Assembly: GCA_025054635.1 (NCBI GenBank)
Contig: JANWZM010000053.1
Span: 1 to 35,210 of the forward strand
Direction: 5' to 3'
DNA length: 35,210 nt
From: Thermoflexales bacterium
Lineage (GTDB): Bacteria; Chloroflexota; Anaerolineae; J036; Brachytrichaceae
Shown here piece by piece: positions 8,061 to 26,470 of the stretch (its first letter is position 1; each line of letters starts with the position of its first letter). The notes below the pieces were generated by a model, which was given only the letters and a program-made list of their open reading frames with translations, did no database searches and was not told where the DNA came from. Made by a program: the position numbers and the translations under genes.

Positions 8061-11000
8061 CTAATGCCCAGTCTCTTCAACCTTCGCGCCTTGTGTGAGA
8101 TTCGCTGCCATGCTGCCTGCCAGCAACATGAACGGGTACGCCAATTCGATCAGGAAGAACGAATGGTCAACAAGCCCGTGCCCGAGCATTGCAGCCAGCA
8201 TCCCCGCCGCGCCCAGAGCCAGCGCGCGATCCCGCAACAGCGTTCGGCGCACCAAGCGGATGTAGCCCAAGATAAGCCCGATTCCAACGAGCACACCGCC
8301 TATCCCCAAGCGCGTCGCGAAGTCCAATCCGATGTTGTGAGGGTGCGAAAGGTTTGGCTCTTGCCACGCCGCTGGCAGGATGTAAAAGCTGCGATAGGCA
8401 TACAGGAAGTTGTCTAGCCCGACACCAAGCCAGAAGTGGTCGCGCCACATGGTTAGTGCGCTTTGCCACAGGTTCAGCCGAAAGAAGCCCGTGCCGCTTG
8501 ACCAGTCGAAGGCAGCAGCGAGACGCGCGAACCGTGTGCCTTCCAACAGCGGCGCAGCGGCGCCACTGAAGAGCACACCCAAGCTCACGAGTGCCCCCAC
8601 CCCAAGGGCAATGCCCAGCCAGCGCCAGCGCCCACCAGCGAGCACGAGGATGGTCACCAGCGCAGCGGGGACGCCAAGCAAAATCGCCCCGCGCGATTGG
8701 CTGAGCAGCAGCGCAGCCGCCACGGGCACAAGCCCTGCTGCATAGAGCAAGTGCCGACTGCTCAACCTGCCGGCGCTAGCGAGCGCACCCCCCAACATGA
8801 CGGCTAGGGCGCGCTCCAGATAAAGTGCGTCGTTATTGGGCGAGCCAAACACACTCTTGATGCGCGGCAACCCGAACTCAGCCGCGATGGTCTCGCCGCG
8901 CATATAGTTCAGCAGCCCGATCGCCGCCACAACGACAGCCCCCAGCACAAACCCATCCACCACGCTCCAGGTCGCCAACTGTGCCCGCGATGGTGACACG
9001 TAGGGCAGTGTGCGCAAGATCAAGTACGCCAGCCCAGGTCCGAGAATCACCAGCCGAAACTCGCGGAACGCCTCGGTGCGAAAGTCCGCCTGCAGCGCGG
9101 ACAGCAGTGCCACGCCCAAAAGCCCGAGCACAGCCGCGTCCAATAGGGTTACCCTAACTGCACGTAGGGAGGCGACGCCTGCGCGACGATGCCTGAGCAG
9201 AAAGCCCGCGACTCGAATCGCCCAACCCACAGTGCACATCAGCGCCAGCAGCTCGACCATCGCAAACGACCGCTCAAACAACCGCTGAGGCTGCAAGTAA
9301 AACGGTACGAAGAATGCCAGCAGCATCAAGCCGACCTCGAGGCGCAGGACGACGAGCACAGCGAGCAGGGACAGCGCGGCTAGGGTCACAACGAAAGCAG
9401 GCGACCAGAAGCCAACCGCCGAGACAAGCGCGGGCAGGACAACGCCTGAACTTAACCCGAGCGCGCGATATGCCGTCGCTGCTTCTAACGCCCAGGTCAA
9501 GGCTGACCCGAGCCAAACTACCAGCCCGAGCCCAAACGCCTGGGCGCGGACAAGGGGCGGCGGCGCTTGCGCGAGTGTTGTTCTGAGCGCGTCGAGTGCT
9601 TGTCGCCACTGTGCGCGCGGCGCGCTCCACGTGACAATCCCTAGCCCAATGATGCCGAGCAGCGCGGCAAGTGCATAGAGTGTCCCCCAGGGAGGGCGGT
9701 CGTCGAGCGATAGAGACGACCAGCCGATTAGTGCCCACTGATTCCAGCCGCGATCCACAGTAACCACAGCCGTGTGCGCGCCGTCGCCCAGTCCCTCGGC
9801 AACGGGGATGGTCTCGATGACAGGGTACAGCCCGGGCGAGGTCATGATCAAGTAAGCGCCGCGCGGCTCACGAGGGAGCAGATTGGCAGGCTTGCCATCA
9901 ATCTCGACAAATGTGTAGGCGCGATAGTTGCCTCGCCGCACAATCAACGCCAGCGCGTCACCGTGAAACCGAAACACCACCCGCGCGTCAGAGCGATCAG
10001 GGATGTCTGCGCCAAGCTGGTCGAAGCGCCATCCCGGGCTGAATGTTGCCTGAGGATTCGGCGCACGACAGTCTGGCTCGGCTGCCAGGACCTCTGGCAT
10101 GGCAGTCATGACGTTCTCCAGGTTGAGCGTTCGGTACACGCTCTGCGGCGAGGCGCAGTTAGCGAAGAGCTGGGCACGTGGAGCGCGGGCTGCCTCCGCG
10201 AGCGCTGCCTCCAGACCAGCCATCACGGGGCGCGGGCGACCCTCTGGGTCGAGCAGGGCAAACCCCCACTGGGCATCGCGCAGCGGGTCAACTGCGCGCG
10301 GCGCAGGCTGGAGCACGTGCACGAACATCGCGCCCATCCAGTGCCACTCGCGAGCAGCGCGGCGGACAGCGCGGTGCAGATACTCAGCTTGCTCCGCTTC
10401 GCTGACCTGACCCCAAATCGAAGGTTCGCCCCCCCAGCCAGGCGGCAGAGCATTCCAGCCAAACTGAGTTGCCCAGATCGCCTTGTGTCCTTCGTTGTGC
10501 GCGACCATCATTTCGCGCATCAGGATCACATGCGCGAAGTTCAGCAGCCCAGCATCCACGCGGCGGTCTTCGGGAGGGAGGCTGAAGCCGTAGGGCTTAG
10601 CTGCGACGATGTCGAAGGCTTGATGACCGCCGAGCTGATACAACTTGAGCAGATAAGTCTGTGGCGCAAGATTGACGTTGCTTTGTTCAACTGTGGGCGC
10701 CAGCGCAGCTAGCACGATGCGTGCCTGCGGGTTGACTTGGTGGATTGCTGTGCGCGCAGCGCGCAGCAACTGCAAGTAGTACGTGGGGTTGACCAGCCCA
10801 TCTCCCCACGCCGCGCTGAGGTTTGGCTCGTCCCAGATTTGGTAGGCTAGGATAGCGCCTGTTGCGTCGTAGCGGCGTGCGAACGCGCCGGCGAAGCGGG
10901 CAAAGTCTCTGACCGAGTAGGGCGGCGCAGTTCGCGTCGCGGATGCGCGCGCGGAGGCTGTCGGCGTGCGCGCCCACTCCGGTGTGGTCCACAGCACAGC

Positions 11001-11357
11001 AAGAATACGGAAGTTGTGCCGCCGGGCAGCCTCAACGATGCGGTCGCTGACCGCCCAATCGAACTGACCTGGTTGAGGCTCAATTTCGTCCCAGCGGAAC
11101 TCTTGGCGCAAGTAAGCGACGCCGCGCGCAGCTAGGTCAGCCAATCGTGCTTCGAGCGTCTGCGGGTCATATTGCTCGAGGGCGACGTTGACCCCCAGAT
11201 ACAACGATTCCGCGCCAAAGACAGGTTGGGGAAAGCCGTCAGGGCGACCGCGCGCCTCTGTGCGCTCGGCTGAGCGCACAGCAAGCCCGCCTGCGGCTGA
11301 AAGCGCTAGGCATAGCGCTCCAAGCACGCATAGCCAGCGATAAAGCACAGGACTCAC
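8061..11357 (-). CDS. Fusion protein: N-terminal GH-A-like glycoside hydrolase domain plus beta-rich domain, then C-terminal O-antigen ligase/polymerase (Wzy_C/WaaL-like) membrane domain
   Basis: One 1098-aa ORF. GH part: LADLAARGVAYLRQEFRWDEIEPQPGQFDW, AYQIWDEPNLSAAWG, KAIWATQFGWNALPPGW. Ligase part: LLLSQSRGAILLGVPAALV, FWLGVGLDNFLYAYR...SHPHNIGLDFATRLGIGGVLVGIGLI. Confidence 0.85.
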   Translation of the reverse strand: MSPVLYRWLCVLGALCLALSAAGGLAVRSAERTEARGRPDGFPQPVFGAESLYLGVNVALEQYDPQTLEARLADLAARGVAYLRQEFRWDEIEPQPGQFDWAVSDRIVEAARRHNFRILAVLWTTPEWARTPTASARASATRTAPPYSVRDFARFAGAFARRYDATGAILAYQIWDEPNLSAAWGDGLVNPTYYLQLLRAARTAIHQVNPQARIVLAALAPTVEQSNVNLAPQTYLLKLYQLGGHQAFDIVAAKPYGFSLPPEDRRVDAGLLNFAHVILMREMMVAHNEGHKAIWATQFGWNALPPGWGGEPSIWGQVSEAEQAEYLHRAVRRAAREWHWMGAMFVHVLQPAPRAVDPLRDAQWGFALLDPEGRPRPVMAGLEAALAEAARAPRAQLFANCASPQSVYRTLNLENVMTAMPEVLAAEPDCRAPNPQATFSPGWRFDQLGADIPDRSDARVVFRFHGDALALIVRRGNYRAYTFVEIDGKPANLLPREPRGAYLIMTSPGLYPVIETIPVAEGLGDGAHTAVVTVDRGWNQWALIGWSSLSLDDRPPWGTLYALAALLGIIGLGIVTWSAPRAQWRQALDALRTTLAQAPPPLVRAQAFGLGLVVWLGSALTWALEAATAYRALGLSSGVVLPALVSAVGFWSPAFVVTLAALSLLAVLVVLRLEVGLMLLAFFVPFYLQPQRLFERSFAMVELLALMCTVGWAIRVAGFLLRHRRAGVASLRAVRVTLLDAAVLGLLGVALLSALQADFRTEAFREFRLVILGPGLAYLILRTLPYVSPSRAQLATWSVVDGFVLGAVVVAAIGLLNYMRGETIAAEFGLPRIKSVFGSPNNDALYLERALAVMLGGALASAGRLSSRHLLYAAGLVPVAAALLLSQSRGAILLGVPAALVTILVLAGGRWRWLGIALGVGALVSLGVLFSGAAAPLLEGTRFARLAAAFDWSSGTGFFRLNLWQSALTMWRDHFWLGVGLDNFLYAYRSFYILPAAWQEPNLSHPHNIGLDFATRLGIGGVLVGIGLILGYIRLVRRTLLRDRALALGAAGMLAAMLGHGLVDHSFFLIELAYPFMLLAGSMAANLTQGAKVEETGH

Positions 11358-11489: not shown

Positions 11490-12491
11490 TTAGTCTTCAT
11501 CAGGCGGTCGAACGATGCGGTTTGGCTTGAGATCTGCTTCGTCGAACAGCGCCAAGGGGAAGTCCATCTGACCGTGCCAGAACTCCCAGACCTCAATCGC
11601 CTCTTTAGCAGCATCCGCGAATGCTTCGTCTTCGGACTGTGCTGCGCGCTCCAGCGCGTCGCGCGCGGCTTGTGTGCCGACCAAAGCTAGCCCTTCCAGT
11701 GCAGCGAAGCGAACGGTCTCGCTCGGGTCGTCGAGGAGCTTGATCAAGTCTGGGGTTGCTTCCTCGTCTTCCAGCTCGCCGCAGGCGATGGCGGCTGCGC
11801 CGCGCACGAGCGGAGAGATGCTGTGCAGCTCAGCGCGGACGAAAGGTTGATAGGCGCTGTTCGCGCTCCGCCCCATGGCGACAACTGCGCTCAGCCGCAA
11901 CAAATCGTCGTCGGCGTGATAGGCGCTGCGGATGAGCCAGTCCACTTCTTCAGTGTTGACGTAGGCGATTGCCTCCAGGGCGCGGCGGTAAACAGGCGAA
12001 GTCTGCGCCTCACGTTGCAACGCAGCGCGCAAGGCGCGATACACCTTGTCGCGCTTGGCTTTGGGGAGCAGCTCGATCTCGCCTTGAGACATCAGCGGGG
12101 CGAGTGCCTGAGCTGCGGCTGCGCGCACAGCCTCTGAGGTGTCTTGCTCCAAACGCGCGATGAGCGGCTCCACGAATTGCGCGTCCACCTCGCCGACAAG
12201 CCCCTCGGTTGCTGCGAGGCGAACGCGGGGGTCAGCGTCATGCAAGCCGTGTAGGAAGATGGGGGTAAAGTCCTTTTCAATTTCTTCCTCTGCCGTGTCG
12301 CGGAATTGCTCCATCAGCGCTGCGCGCCGATCAGCGCTCAAGGCGTCCCAACTGCGCTTCCACTGGGAAAGCTGCACTTCGCTCATTGTAGCGATGGTGA
12401 AGATCGCTGCTGGAGGTAATGCCTCTTGCCCCTGCATCAGCGTCGCGATCTCGTTAAGGGAGAGGGTGCGAGGGATACGTGACTTTGGCAT
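11490..12491 (-). CDS. HEAT-repeat domain protein
   Basis: 333 aa with repeated helical units (DPRVRLAATEGLVGEVD, SEAVRAAAAQALAPLM, SPLVRGAAAIACGELED, SETVRFAALEGLALVG). Confidence 0.88.
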   Translation of the reverse strand: MPKSRIPRTLSLNEIATLMQGQEALPPAAIFTIATMSEVQLSQWKRSWDALSADRRAALMEQFRDTAEEEIEKDFTPIFLHGLHDADPRVRLAATEGLVGEVDAQFVEPLIARLEQDTSEAVRAAAAQALAPLMSQGEIELLPKAKRDKVYRALRAALQREAQTSPVYRRALEAIAYVNTEEVDWLIRSAYHADDDLLRLSAVVAMGRSANSAYQPFVRAELHSISPLVRGAAAIACGELEDEEATPDLIKLLDDPSETVRFAALEGLALVGTQAARDALERAAQSEDEAFADAAKEAIEVWEFWHGQMDFPLALFDEADLKPNRIVRPPDED

Positions 12492-12498
12492 GGCTCAT

Positions 12499-13641
12499 TC
12501 ACCGCAAGGTGACTGGTGCACTGATGTCCAGGATCACCACTACAAAGGATAGCGCAAGCAGGACAGCCATTCCCACTGCGTGGACCCATTGCTCGCGTTG
12601 AGGGTCAATCCTGCGCCCGCGCAGCGACTCGATCACGATGAACAGAATCCGTCCACCGTCCAGAGCGGGAATGGGGAGCAAGTTGGTCAACCCCAGCACG
12701 ATGCTGATAAAGCCAGCAAAGCGCACAAACGGGAACAGCCCTTGTGTATCGCGCTCCTCAATCAGGGATACACCAATGGTGGTGATCCCGATCGGCCCGA
12801 CGGGGCGCGCTTGCTCGAGCGGGACACGTTGCTCGATCAGCTCGAAGGGCAAGCGCACTAGTCCGATGAAGATGGCAGCGACGTCTTGAGCTGCGCGCCC
12901 AGCAGCTTGGTCGAGGGTATGAGCAACGCGCTCTGACCTGAGCACTCGCAGCCCAATCGAAATACCCAGCGGCGCTGTGCGGTCAGGGTTTGCAGGCATC
13001 GTGCCGCGCAGCACAACGCGCTGCAGCTCAGCGCCGTCGGCGACAGGGCGCAACACCTCTAGTTCGAGGGTCTGCCCAGCCGCGCGCAGCACAGCGCTGC
13101 GCAGGGCACTTGCGTCCGGCAAAGCAGAGTTACCGGCTGGGACGCGCTGAGTGAGGTCAACGCCGTTGACGCTGACGATCTCGTCGCCAGGCTGCAGCCC
13201 AATCCGTGCCGCAACGCTATCAGCGCTGACCGTCACAACGCGGAAGCGGACCTCGCTCGGCGCTGTGGCAAACAGCAGGTACGCCAGCACCAAGATCAAA
13301 AATCCGCTGGCGAAGTTCATCAATGAGCCACTAGCAAGGATCAGCAAGCGCCAGCGCTTCGGCTGTGCAGCAAAGCTGCGCGGATCGCTGGGGTCTTCCT
13401 CGCCAGTCATGCGCACGAACGCGCCGAGCGGCAGCCAGTTCAGGGTGTATTCCGTTTCGCCGCGCTTGAACAAGCGCACTAAGCGTGGGGGAAAACCCAT
13501 CCCAAACTCTTCTACTCGCACCCCAGCGCGCTTTGCGGCGATGAAATGACCAAGCTCGTGGACGAACATCAGCGGTCCTAGCAGGATGATGAAAACGGGC
13601 AAGCCCACTAGAAGCGCGTTCAGAATTTCCATTGGACTCAC
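12499..13641 (-). CDS. rseP: RseP-type site-2 protease (M50 metalloprotease with PDZ domain)
   Basis: VHELGHFIAAKRAGVRVEEFGMGFPPRL (HExxH), PDZ-like AARIGLQPGDEIVSVNGVDL, second motif NLLPIPALDGGRILF. Confidence 0.95.
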   Translation of the reverse strand: MSPMEILNALLVGLPVFIILLGPLMFVHELGHFIAAKRAGVRVEEFGMGFPPRLVRLFKRGETEYTLNWLPLGAFVRMTGEEDPSDPRSFAAQPKRWRLLILASGSLMNFASGFLILVLAYLLFATAPSEVRFRVVTVSADSVAARIGLQPGDEIVSVNGVDLTQRVPAGNSALPDASALRSAVLRAAGQTLELEVLRPVADGAELQRVVLRGTMPANPDRTAPLGISIGLRVLRSERVAHTLDQAAGRAAQDVAAIFIGLVRLPFELIEQRVPLEQARPVGPIGITTIGVSLIEERDTQGLFPFVRFAGFISIVLGLTNLLPIPALDGGRILFIVIESLRGRRIDPQREQWVHAVGMAVLLALSFVVVILDISAPVTLR

Positions 13642-19134: not shown

Positions 19135-20781
19135 CTATCCCTCTTGGAGAGTGTGTTTATAGATGTCTCGGTCTGCGACGCACTCCCAGCCGACAACTTG
19201 GCGCAGGGATTCGCTGAACTCGACGCCAATCAGGTAGACCACACGTCCATCGGCGCGGTACTTCGCGGCGTAGTCGCGCGCCTTGAGCTGCGCTAGAGCT
19301 TCTCCAGTAGCTTGTTTGCCAGCTACAACCTTGAACTCGAAGAGATACACACGGTCTCCGAAGAGCACCGCTAAGTCACACCGACCTTTGTTGCTGACGT
19401 CTTCAGCAATCAGCTCCAAACCAAGTGCAGCCAAGTGGCTGTAGAACACGCTGGCGTAGTATCCCTCGTAGTGCGCAAGCGGTGTTGAGCGGTACCAGTC
19501 GGACGGTATCGAGGCGTAAAGACGCTCGAAGTGTTGACGCATCCCATCGAGGTCGTTTTGTTGGATCAGGTTGTATAGCGCTGTGTTGAGCCGGCTGGTC
19601 TTCGCCCTGTCGCGGAGATACCAGTGAGCAAACAGTTCACCGTTGAGCGCCGAGCGAACCTCGAGGTTCGGCAGGCTCAAGACGTAAGTCCAGCGTGTGC
19701 CTTCTTGATGACGGTCGCGGATGGTCAAGTACCCAGTCTGCCACAGCATTGCCTCAACCGAGATCCCGTCCACATCGAAGGTAGAGAGCAGAGCGTCGTC
19801 GGCGTAGAGCGACTCAAGTCTGTGGGTGGGGAACTGCCGCTCAGCAAGCCAATTCACTAGGAAGGTTGGCGTGCCCGTCTCGAACCACCAGGTGCGGAAC
19901 TCGCCTGACTTGAAGAGCATCAGCACGTCGAAGGGGTTATAGACGGGTTCGCCAAGCCATTGATAGCCGTTGTACCAGCGCCGCACATCGAGAATGTTAA
20001 AGCGTTTGATCTCTGGTGCGAAGACCTCGTGCAAGTCGGCTTCGGTATAGCCGCAGATTGTGGCGTAGGCAGGGTCTAGCGTAAGGTCGTATAGGTTGTT
20101 CAGCCCAGAGAACAAGCTGACCTTGCTGAACTTGGTCACGCCTGTGAGGAAGACAAAGCGCAAATAGGCGTCTTGCCCTTTCAGCACGGAGTAGAAGCCG
20201 CGCAGCTCGTCGCGCATTTGGCGAGCCGTTTCAGGGGAAGTCAGATTATCGAGAATCGGCTTGTCGTATTCGTCCACCAACACAACCACGCGCTCGCCCC
20301 ACTGTCTCGACGCTCGCTCGAGCAACTCCATCAGGCACGTTGTGGGGTCTTGTGCGCTGCACGTTACGCCGAGTTGCTCAGCGTTGGCACGCAGGATGTA
20401 AAGAATCCGCTGGCGAAGCGCTTCCTGGCTGTTCAGTACCCCCTCAGCAAAACTGATGCGCACGACAGGGCGTCGGCGAGACCAATCCCAGTGATGCTCG
20501 AGATACAGGCCCTCGAACAGGTGCTGGTTACCAGCGAATGCCTCAGCGAGGGTGTCCAGAAACAGGCTTTTGCCAAAGCGCCTCGGGCGCGCCAGGAAAT
20601 AGAACTTGCCTTCTTCCGCGAGCTGCGCGATCATCGGTGTCTTGTCCACGTAGTAGTAGCCCTCCTCCCGAAGCTCGCGAAAGGTCTGGATGCCGATGGG
20701 CAGTTTTCGCTTTCCGGGAGCTCGATGGGCTTTCGCCTTCGTCAGCAGAGTGGCGAACCGTGCAGCGCTGCGGAAATCCAT
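19135..20781 (-). CDS. AAA-ATPase-like / PD-(D/E)XK nuclease family protein (DUF1703-type)
   Basis: KLPIGIQTFRELREEGYYYVDKTPMIAQL, FLARPRRFGKSLFLDTLAEAF, VVLVDEYDKPI; C-term GRCDLAVLFGDRVYLFEFKV (D...EFK). Confidence 0.9.
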   Translation of the reverse strand: MDFRSAARFATLLTKAKAHRAPGKRKLPIGIQTFRELREEGYYYVDKTPMIAQLAEEGKFYFLARPRRFGKSLFLDTLAEAFAGNQHLFEGLYLEHHWDWSRRRPVVRISFAEGVLNSQEALRQRILYILRANAEQLGVTCSAQDPTTCLMELLERASRQWGERVVVLVDEYDKPILDNLTSPETARQMRDELRGFYSVLKGQDAYLRFVFLTGVTKFSKVSLFSGLNNLYDLTLDPAYATICGYTEADLHEVFAPEIKRFNILDVRRWYNGYQWLGEPVYNPFDVLMLFKSGEFRTWWFETGTPTFLVNWLAERQFPTHRLESLYADDALLSTFDVDGISVEAMLWQTGYLTIRDRHQEGTRWTYVLSLPNLEVRSALNGELFAHWYLRDRAKTSRLNTALYNLIQQNDLDGMRQHFERLYASIPSDWYRSTPLAHYEGYYASVFYSHLAALGLELIAEDVSNKGRCDLAVLFGDRVYLFEFKVVAGKQATGEALAQLKARDYAAKYRADGRVVYLIGVEFSESLRQVVGWECVADRDIYKHTLQEG

Positions 20782-22502: not shown

Positions 22503-23774
22503 ATGCGAACAATCGCGATGATCCTAGCCGGTGGCAGGGGGAGCCGACTGAGCGTGCTCGCGGACAAGCGCGCAAAGCCCGCTGTCCCCTTCGCTGGGAA
22601 GTACCGCATTATTGACTTTCCGCTCTCAAACTGTGTCAACAGCGGCATCTACACGGTCGGCGTCGTCACCCAATACCGCCCCCGCTCGCTGCAAGACCAC
22701 ATCCGCAACGGCGCACCCTGGGATCTCGACCGACTCAATGGTGGGGTATGGATTCTTCAACCCTACCTCGGGCGCATGTCCTCCGACTGGTACAACGGCA
22801 CAGCCGATGCAATTTATCAGAACTTGGATTTTATTCGCAACGCAAAGGCGGATTATGTTTTAGTTTTGTCGGGCGACCATGTCTACAAAATGGATTACAC
22901 GTTGCTGCTGCGCTTCCACCAAGACCGCCAAGCGGATGTCACTGTGGCAACGCTCAAGGTCAGCCTAGAGGAAGCCAGCCGCTTCGGCATTGTCCAAACC
23001 GACTCAAACTACCGCGTGATCAACTTCGAAGAGAAACCCAAGCAGCCGAAGGGCACCCTTGCCTCGATGGGCATTTACGTGTTCAACTATGACACCTTGG
23101 TCAAAGTCCTCCACGAGGATGCGAAGAACCCCGAGTCTAGCCACGACTTCGGCAAAGACGTGTTCCCCAAGATGGTCAGCGAGGGCTACCGCGTCTTCGC
23201 CTACCCTTACTCGGACTACTGGGTTGATGTAGGGACGATCCAGAGCTACTGGGAAGCGCACATGGACTTGCTCGCGGAAGTGCCGCCGCTGGACTTGCTG
23301 GAGCGCAGTTGGGTGATCCACACCCGTTCAGAGGAGCGCCCGCCTGTCAACATTCGCACGGGCGCTATCGTTAGCCACTCGCTGATCACCGACGGCTGCG
23401 TGATCGAAGGCTCGGTCGAGTACTCCGTCCTCTCACCTGGTGTCCGCGTTGAGCGCGGCGCAGTTGTGCGCTACTCAATCATTATGACTGACGCCAAGAT
23501 TGAGGCTGGTGCGGTCGTTGACCGCTGCATCATAGACAAGAACGTGGTGATTGGGCGCGAAGCCCACATCGGCTGCGGCTCGGACTACACCCCCAACCGA
23601 GACCCGAGCTTGGGATTGACTACAGGACTGAGCGTCGTCGGCAAAAACACCTTGATCCCACCTGGCTTCGAGGTCGGGCGCAACGTGATCATTGGCAGCG
23701 ACTTGAACGACGATCACTTCCAGGGCAACTCGCTGCGCAGCGGCGAGACCTTCGTGCTTGAAGCGGCTGACTGA
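22503..23774 (+). CDS. glgC: Glucose-1-phosphate adenylyltransferase
   Basis: [80 protein letters not shown], left-handed beta-helix C-term. Confidence 0.97.
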
Positions 23775-25678: not shown

Positions 25679-26470
25679 CTACTCTGTCTTACCGAGCTGT
25701 GCGCGCAGGCGCGCCAGCTCGGCTTCGAGCTCTGCGATCCGCTGCTCAGCTGCCTCAGCACGCTGGCGCTCTGCCTCGGCGCGCGAACGTTCGAGTTGAG
25801 CCACCTCGGCATCGGTTGGGATCAAACGTCCCTGCTGGTCATACAGCCGCAGCCAGCGCGTCCGCACCTGACCATATATCCCTTCCCAAAGCCCCAGCCA
25901 TGCGCCCAGCACCTCACTCCATATCCACCCGTGCTCGTTTGCGGTCACTGGCTGGTATCCTGCTGAGGTCAACTGCCAAGCGTGTAGCTCAAGCTCAACC
26001 TCCCCTTCCGTCGGGTCAGGTCCGTAGCACACGTATTCCAACACCCCCAACGCTTGTTCATAGATTGCCTTCTTGCGCCCCAGGTCTTCCTTCCGCGTGC
26101 GTGGCGACAGCAACTCGACGACCAGCTCAGGGCGGCGCTCCTCCTCCCATACCACCCAGCGCTTGCGCGCTCGTGTGCCGTCCACGCCGCGCACAACGAA
26201 TAGGTCTGGTCCTCTGAAGTCGAGTGACCTAGCTTGGGCAAGGCTATAGAAGACGAACATGTTGACGCCAATGAAATAGTCTGTTCGGTCGTGCCAAAGC
26301 TGGGCGATGGACTCACGCAGCAAGGCAGCCTGGAGATAATGCCACTGGTTCTCCAACGGTTCACCATCCTCTTCGGGGAGTTCGAGGGCAGCCAGTGCCG
26401 AAAGGTCAGGTCGCTCGTCGTCAGGAACAGTGACGTGCGGGACAAGCTCGGCAGTTGCTTGCTCGGGCAT
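25679..26470 (-). CDS. Uma2-family (DUF820) putative endonuclease with C-terminal coiled coil
   Basis: PDLFVVRGVDG...RPELVVELLSPRTRKEDLGRKKAIYEQALGVLEYVCYGP; coiled-coil tail AEAERQRAEAAEQRIAELEAELARLRAQL. Confidence 0.88.
   Translation of the reverse strand: MPEQATAELVPHVTVPDDERPDLSALAALELPEEDGEPLENQWHYLQAALLRESIAQLWHDRTDYFIGVNMFVFYSLAQARSLDFRGPDLFVVRGVDGTRARKRWVVWEEERRPELVVELLSPRTRKEDLGRKKAIYEQALGVLEYVCYGPDPTEGEVELELHAWQLTSAGYQPVTANEHGWIWSEVLGAWLGLWEGIYGQVRTRWLRLYDQQGRLIPTDAEVAQLERSRAEAERQRAEAAEQRIAELEAELARLRAQLGKTE

Follow-up and report, generated by a model that had tools for sequence, protein, structure and literature searches.

PslG of Pseudomonas aeruginosa (PDB entries 4zn2, 5bx9 and 9g17) is a GH39-type endo-β-glucanase. 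Its Glu276 is the residue that was trapped covalently (PMC11912335), the inactive double mutant of the enzyme combines E165Q with E276Q (PMC9075953), and normal Psl production requires its hydrolytic activity (PMC6813494). In WaaL of Cupriavidus metallidurans (PDB entries 7tpg and 7tpj; CAZy family GT121), Arg191 and Arg265 bind undecaprenyl diphosphate (Und-PP) and His313 is the proposed activator of the acceptor; a histidine at this position is the O-ligase state, whereas Asp or Glu occupies it in the related inverting polymerase families, with one exception (PMC10920833). We searched the open-access literature and found no description of a fusion between a glycosidase and an O-ligase; in the same literature, no paper linking PslJ with Wzy and Psl was found. 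Here, we describe such a fusion, encoded in the window (the whole stretch of 35,210 nucleotides that was analysed). Our preferred reading, to which we assign a probability of roughly 0.55, is that a pseudo-glycosidase domain holds glycan for the WaaL-type transferase to which it is fused.

The gene begins with a GTG start codon at 11357, ends with a stop codon at 8061–8063 and lies in a stop-to-stop frame of 1105 amino acids (Table 1). The earlier note had described a single open reading frame with TIM-barrel glycosidase-like, β and O-antigen ligase domains, and the open frame, Pfam, phmmer and AlphaFold2 all bear out that description. The full-length AlphaFold2 model, which was built from 61 homologues, is one confident chain with a mean pLDDT of 91.0 and a pTM of 0.86. 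A frameshift or misassembly joining two genes is excluded because full-length homologues (34–67% identity) are encoded in one open reading frame on about 80 independent contigs and also in whole genomes. The existence of a 1098-residue fusion that contains both folds and is missing the canonical glycosidase site is well supported.

Table 1. Features of the fusion gene and of other genes in the window, with positions in the window and the evidence for each.
Feature	Position	Strand	Evidence
Whole gene, 1098-residue PslG-like/WaaL-like fusion protein	8061..11357	(-)	Single open frame, full-length homologues, AlphaFold2
N-terminal membrane anchor helix, residues 3–35	11253..11351	(-)	Hydropathy and helix in AlphaFold2 model
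GH39/PslG-like TIM barrel, residues 45–400	10158..11225	(-)	phmmer, profile, Foldseek
β-sandwich after the barrel, residues 432–553	9699..10064	(-)	Strands in model and PslG structural match
First helix of the membrane part, residues 557–582, linking the outer-face module to the transferase	9612..9689	(-)	Hydropathy, models
WaaL-type GT-C membrane domain, residues 585–1097	8067..9605	(-)	Wzy_C, profile, Foldseek to 7tpg
Codon 176, Asp replacing the Asn of GH39/PslG (WNEPN to WDEPN)	10830..10832	(-)	Alignment to PslG
Codon 177, Glu, acid/base retained (PslG E165)	10827..10829	(-)	Alignment to PslG
Codon 298, Gln in place of PslG nucleophile Glu276	10464..10466	(-)	Alignment to PslG
Codon 889, Arg, equivalent to WaaL Arg191 (Und-PP binding)	8691..8693	(-)	Alignment; role from PMC10920833
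Codon 960, Arg, equivalent to WaaL Arg265 (Und-PP binding)	8478..8480	(-)	Alignment; role from PMC10920833
Codon 1007, His, equivalent to WaaL His313 (proposed acceptor activation)	8337..8339	(-)	Alignment; role from PMC10920833
HEAT-repeat gene and RseP-like site-2 protease gene, directly upstream and co-oriented	11490-13641	(-)	TIGR00054 above cut-off (protease)
AAA-ATPase_like/PDDEXK_9 gene	19135-20781	(-)	
Uma2 gene	25679-26470	(-)	

The front half of the protein contains a (β/α)8 barrel with PslG/GH39 homology, as identified by three methods. Using phmmer against solved structures, PslG was matched across residues 53–386 (E = 7e-18); the family profile matched it with an E value of 3e-32, and in Foldseek three PslG entries ranked first (the best being 5bx9, E = 1e-17) over 502–510 alignment columns. 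Pfam gave a weak GH42 match to residues 61–128. The structural match appears to span the β domain as well, and the β-sandwich is probably the counterpart of the C-terminal β domain of PslG. With this number of aligned columns, residues 1–555 look like an entire PslG-like protein rather than a fragment.

The catalytic site of this barrel is altered at two positions. In the NEP motif of GH39/PslG an Asn precedes the acid/base Glu; here, the Glu is present (Glu177) and the Asn is replaced by Asp176. The nucleophile Glu is replaced by Gln298, which corresponds to E276Q, the substitution that the inactive PslG double mutant carries along with E165Q. The earlier note had proposed a module that recognises or trims glycan: recognition survives, while trimming is not supported for this protein, given the Gln at the nucleophile position and the Asp before the acid/base. 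We infer that the barrel does not hydrolyse glycan and that its dead site binds it.

For an unbiased count of the site in relatives, loci were taken from a whole-genome search in which a single genome represented each family, giving 46 fused proteins of the class. Position 176 is Asp, His or Arg in these proteins and Asn in none, position 177 is Glu in most though not all, and the nucleophile column contains E, A, N, H, Q, R or other residues. Both catalytic Glu residues are retained in about 13 of the 46, so glycan cleavage may persist in some family members; the others are without the nucleophile, the acid/base or both, and a subset (DQ..E, DN..E and DS..E) drops the acid/base yet keeps the nucleophile position. 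Ten tryptophans of the barrel (W89, W101, W128, W175, W184, W295, W301, W315, W338 and W340) are 93–100% conserved in the same set and are assumed, by analogy with the family, to line the cleft. An apparently invariant WDEPN motif (81 of 81) was discarded as an ascertainment artefact of the search pattern YQIWDEPN, being weaker after a recount on whole-genome hits. All of the stand-alone PslG-like paralogues of the class that were examined have the canonical N-E...E site. Class genomes carry several such stand-alone genes each, and some of the match regions contain in-frame stop codons.

In other classes of the phylum the canonical site is complete in 15 of 18 fusions, so that the ancestor of the fused module probably had hydrolase activity; the three non-canonical fusions (loci L192, L193 and L194) have Asp176 in common. 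A tree of 108 rows needs a single change at position 176 (branch support 97), nine at position 177, 11 at position 298 and at least 15 between an intact and a broken catalytic pair. Reading the tree as unrooted, the fused barrels all lie on one side of one branch with a support of just 82, so we go only as far as calling a single origin of the fusion possible. Residue 254 is Gln, Met, Asn, Ala or His in canonical proteins and often Lys in the class fusions; its pairing with Asp176 (52 D-K and no N-K, with too few independent events for significance) is suggestive of coupling between the two positions.

These observations bear on two explanations in which the barrel retains a chemistry of its own. 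It is unlikely that the barrel still cuts glycan, by means of another residue or a water mechanism, for the ligase to transfer: Glu177 is present, most of the other-class fusions keep a full canonical site and PslG hydrolysis matters for Psl (PMC6813494), but Gln occupies the nucleophile position here, most class members carry N, H, A, S or another residue there, the class as a whole has replaced the Asn that precedes the acid/base and the catalytic pair is broken repeatedly on the tree. The same requirement for hydrolysis in Psl production also counts against our preferred reading, as the analogy with PslG predicts activity and not its loss. Engineered glycosynthases have the nucleophile replaced and the acid/base kept, and the pattern in the class fusions resembles them. 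A natural glycosynthase, in which the nucleophile-less barrel itself joins an activated α-linked donor to an acceptor using its acid/base, would accommodate the retention of Glu177 alongside N, H, Q, S or A at the nucleophile position, as well as the diphospholipid activation of Wzy/WaaL donors. We nevertheless consider it far-fetched, since the DQ..E, DN..E and DS..E subset loses the acid/base and a decay of catalysis fits better than one new chemistry. A fold and aromatic residues that are kept while catalysis is lost form the pattern that is expected of a domain that holds glycan.

The back half of the protein falls within the Wzy_C/WaaL family, as the earlier note had proposed. Pfam Wzy_C (PF04932) matches residues 875–1023 with an E value of 1e-16 and a score of 61.5 bits against the curated cut-off of 31.7, and the family profile matches WaaL (7tpg; E = 1.8e-8). 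A separate model of residues 556–1098 (pTM 0.90) was used for Foldseek and has the WaaL membrane fold; the sole match below 1e-3 is 7tpg (E = 3.2e-8, TMt 0.63), and FtsW and RodA come next. The motifs SQSRGA (residues 886–891) and HPHN (residues 1005–1008) are present as previously reported, and the two Und-PP arginines and the acceptor-activating His of WaaL have counterparts in R889, R960 and H1007. All 107 class fusions compared have the Arg of position 960 and the His of position 1007. The R889 position is Arg in 54 of the 107 and varies within the family as a whole; that the arginine pair of WaaL is not kept throughout weighs against our preferred reading.

The choice between ligase and polymerase, which the earlier note had left open, turns on His1007. 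We prefer a ligase because this residue, the same in all 107 proteins, stands where the inverting polymerase families (BP-Pol, the Wzy polymerases) have Asp or Glu; the His-type site thus points to ligase-type chemistry, in which a lipid-linked glycan would be transferred by ligation rather than polymerisation. A Wzy polymerase, for which the disarmed barrel would clamp the growing polymer and so set processivity or chain length, is a rather doubtful alternative. Wzy and WaaL do share Wzy_C (PF04932), and in many relatives a separate Wzy_C protein is encoded downstream, so that polymerisation and ligation may be divided between the two, but in the fusion as well as in the separate protein the activating residue is His, not the Asp or Glu of inverting polymerases (PMC10920833), and WaaL is the best structural match in Foldseek, with no polymerase closer. 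The genome under study also encodes a separate Wzy_C protein of 505 amino acids (L197:4413-5930, contig C234), on the same contig as gyrB, and its counterpart adjoins the fusion in other families.

The WaaL group also contains PglL and PglS, and the proposed catalytic His of PglS aligns with that of WaaL (PMC12800693). A protein O-oligosaccharyltransferase of this type, with the ligase domain glycosylating surface proteins and the barrel holding the glycan, is nonetheless improbable, as no conserved gene for a target protein was recognised and the conserved neighbours include glycan-building genes. An NDP-sugar epimerase gene is located downstream of the fusion in about 40 of 80 relatives, and a second Wzy_C protein, a GtrA-type membrane protein and a GT4 glycosyltransferase are encoded near it in about 20–35 of 80. 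The earlier remark that no polysaccharide genes are visible nearby is thus accurate for the immediate surroundings, as the only sugar gene noted is a nucleotidyltransferase-like open reading frame (22503–23774) 11 kb off, but does not extend to the relatives with their conserved glycan cluster. A conserved gene for G5 and WD40/PD40-like repeats (about 520–1500 amino acids) is found upstream of the fusion in 47 of 80 loci (for example, L034, L041, L063 and L085). In the family to which the window belongs, the neighbours are instead the HEAT-repeat and RseP-like protease genes; about nine close relatives have this pair in front of the fusion as well, so the pair may be a lineage-specific operon. 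In other classes, a stand-alone PslG-like gene is often directly upstream. Loci L186 and L189 were considered as split fusions and rejected: the glycosidase part falls in the stand-alone clade and the motif of the Wzy part is of fusion type, which makes them adjacent separate genes. Elsewhere in the window, the AAA-ATPase_like/PDDEXK_9 and Uma2 genes belong to families that are often mobile or expanded.

The search for this architecture across Chloroflexota that the earlier note had suggested was carried out and indicates that the fusion is close to universal in its class. A whole-genome search (E ≤ 1e-30) gave a strong match in 280 of 299 sampled genomes of the class; the 19 genomes without a match are of high quality and fall in three families (f27, f53 and f59). 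One-ORF fusions are present in at least 45 of 54 families (44 family representatives identified by script and L118 in genome G018), and in several of the representatives without a one-ORF call the locus is cut at contig ends. The fusion also occurs in other classes of the phylum. Outside the phylum, where the search was thin, the single match (L065) is doubtful: this putative 'PVC' fusion is alone on a 4-kb contig, has no equivalent in the 116 genomes sampled from that group and is probably misbinned. Plasmids gave only partial glycosidase matches.

If the protein does hold glycan for ligation, the membrane domain would be an inverting transferase that uses undecaprenyl-diphosphate-glycan, most likely a ligase, with R889 and R960 holding the diphosphate and H1007 activating the acceptor hydroxyl. 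On the outer face of the membrane, a complete PslG-like module that has lost hydrolysis would use the aromatic cleft that it retains to bind glycan, either a chain that is growing or lipid-linked or that of the acceptor, and would hand this glycan to the ligase site. As Chloroflexota have no LPS biosynthesis genes (PMC13319060), an acceptor other than lipid A–core is expected. A bolder version, which we offer tentatively and on balance doubt, is that the remodelled site (Asp176 and often Lys254) has gained a new positive function, reading or positioning the lipid-linked glycan and gating the ligase, which would make a former hydrolase an obligatory in-cis partner. Such a gated surface-polymer ligase would be the central step in the assembly of an undescribed envelope glycan in the class.

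The combination of known domain families seen here is lineage-wide and apparently undescribed in the literature searched, and points to a shared way of building the outer envelope in this Chloroflexota class. That envelope is poorly understood: LPS genes are absent (PMC13319060), yet an O-ligase-type enzyme is present in nearly all sampled genomes of the class and offers a handle on the missing surface glycan. The family also provides a natural test of why glycosidases are encoded in polysaccharide gene clusters, as a glycosidase that is fused to a transferase and apparently disarmed, yet kept in one large lineage, suggests a structural or binding role that is separable from hydrolysis.

Among known systems, chitinase-like lectins similarly keep a glycoside hydrolase fold and have lost a catalytic residue, although they belong to a different family and have no transferase attached. 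PslG is the best match in both sequence and structure and shares the barrel, apparently the β domain that follows it, inner-membrane association and a polysaccharide-assembly context; it differs in being a separate protein with Asn-Glu and Glu276, whereas the fusion has Asp-Glu and Gln298 and is joined to a ligase. WaaL resembles the back half in its fold and in the aligned residues R191, R265 and H313, but is only 19% identical to the fusion, which has the extra N-terminal half. A parallel in overall plan is WadA of Brucella and Mesorhizobium, likewise a two-module protein with an O-ligase (GT121) and a carbohydrate-active domain (PMC10920833); the partner in WadA is a globular GT25 glycosyltransferase, whereas that in the fusion is a glycosidase-type barrel.
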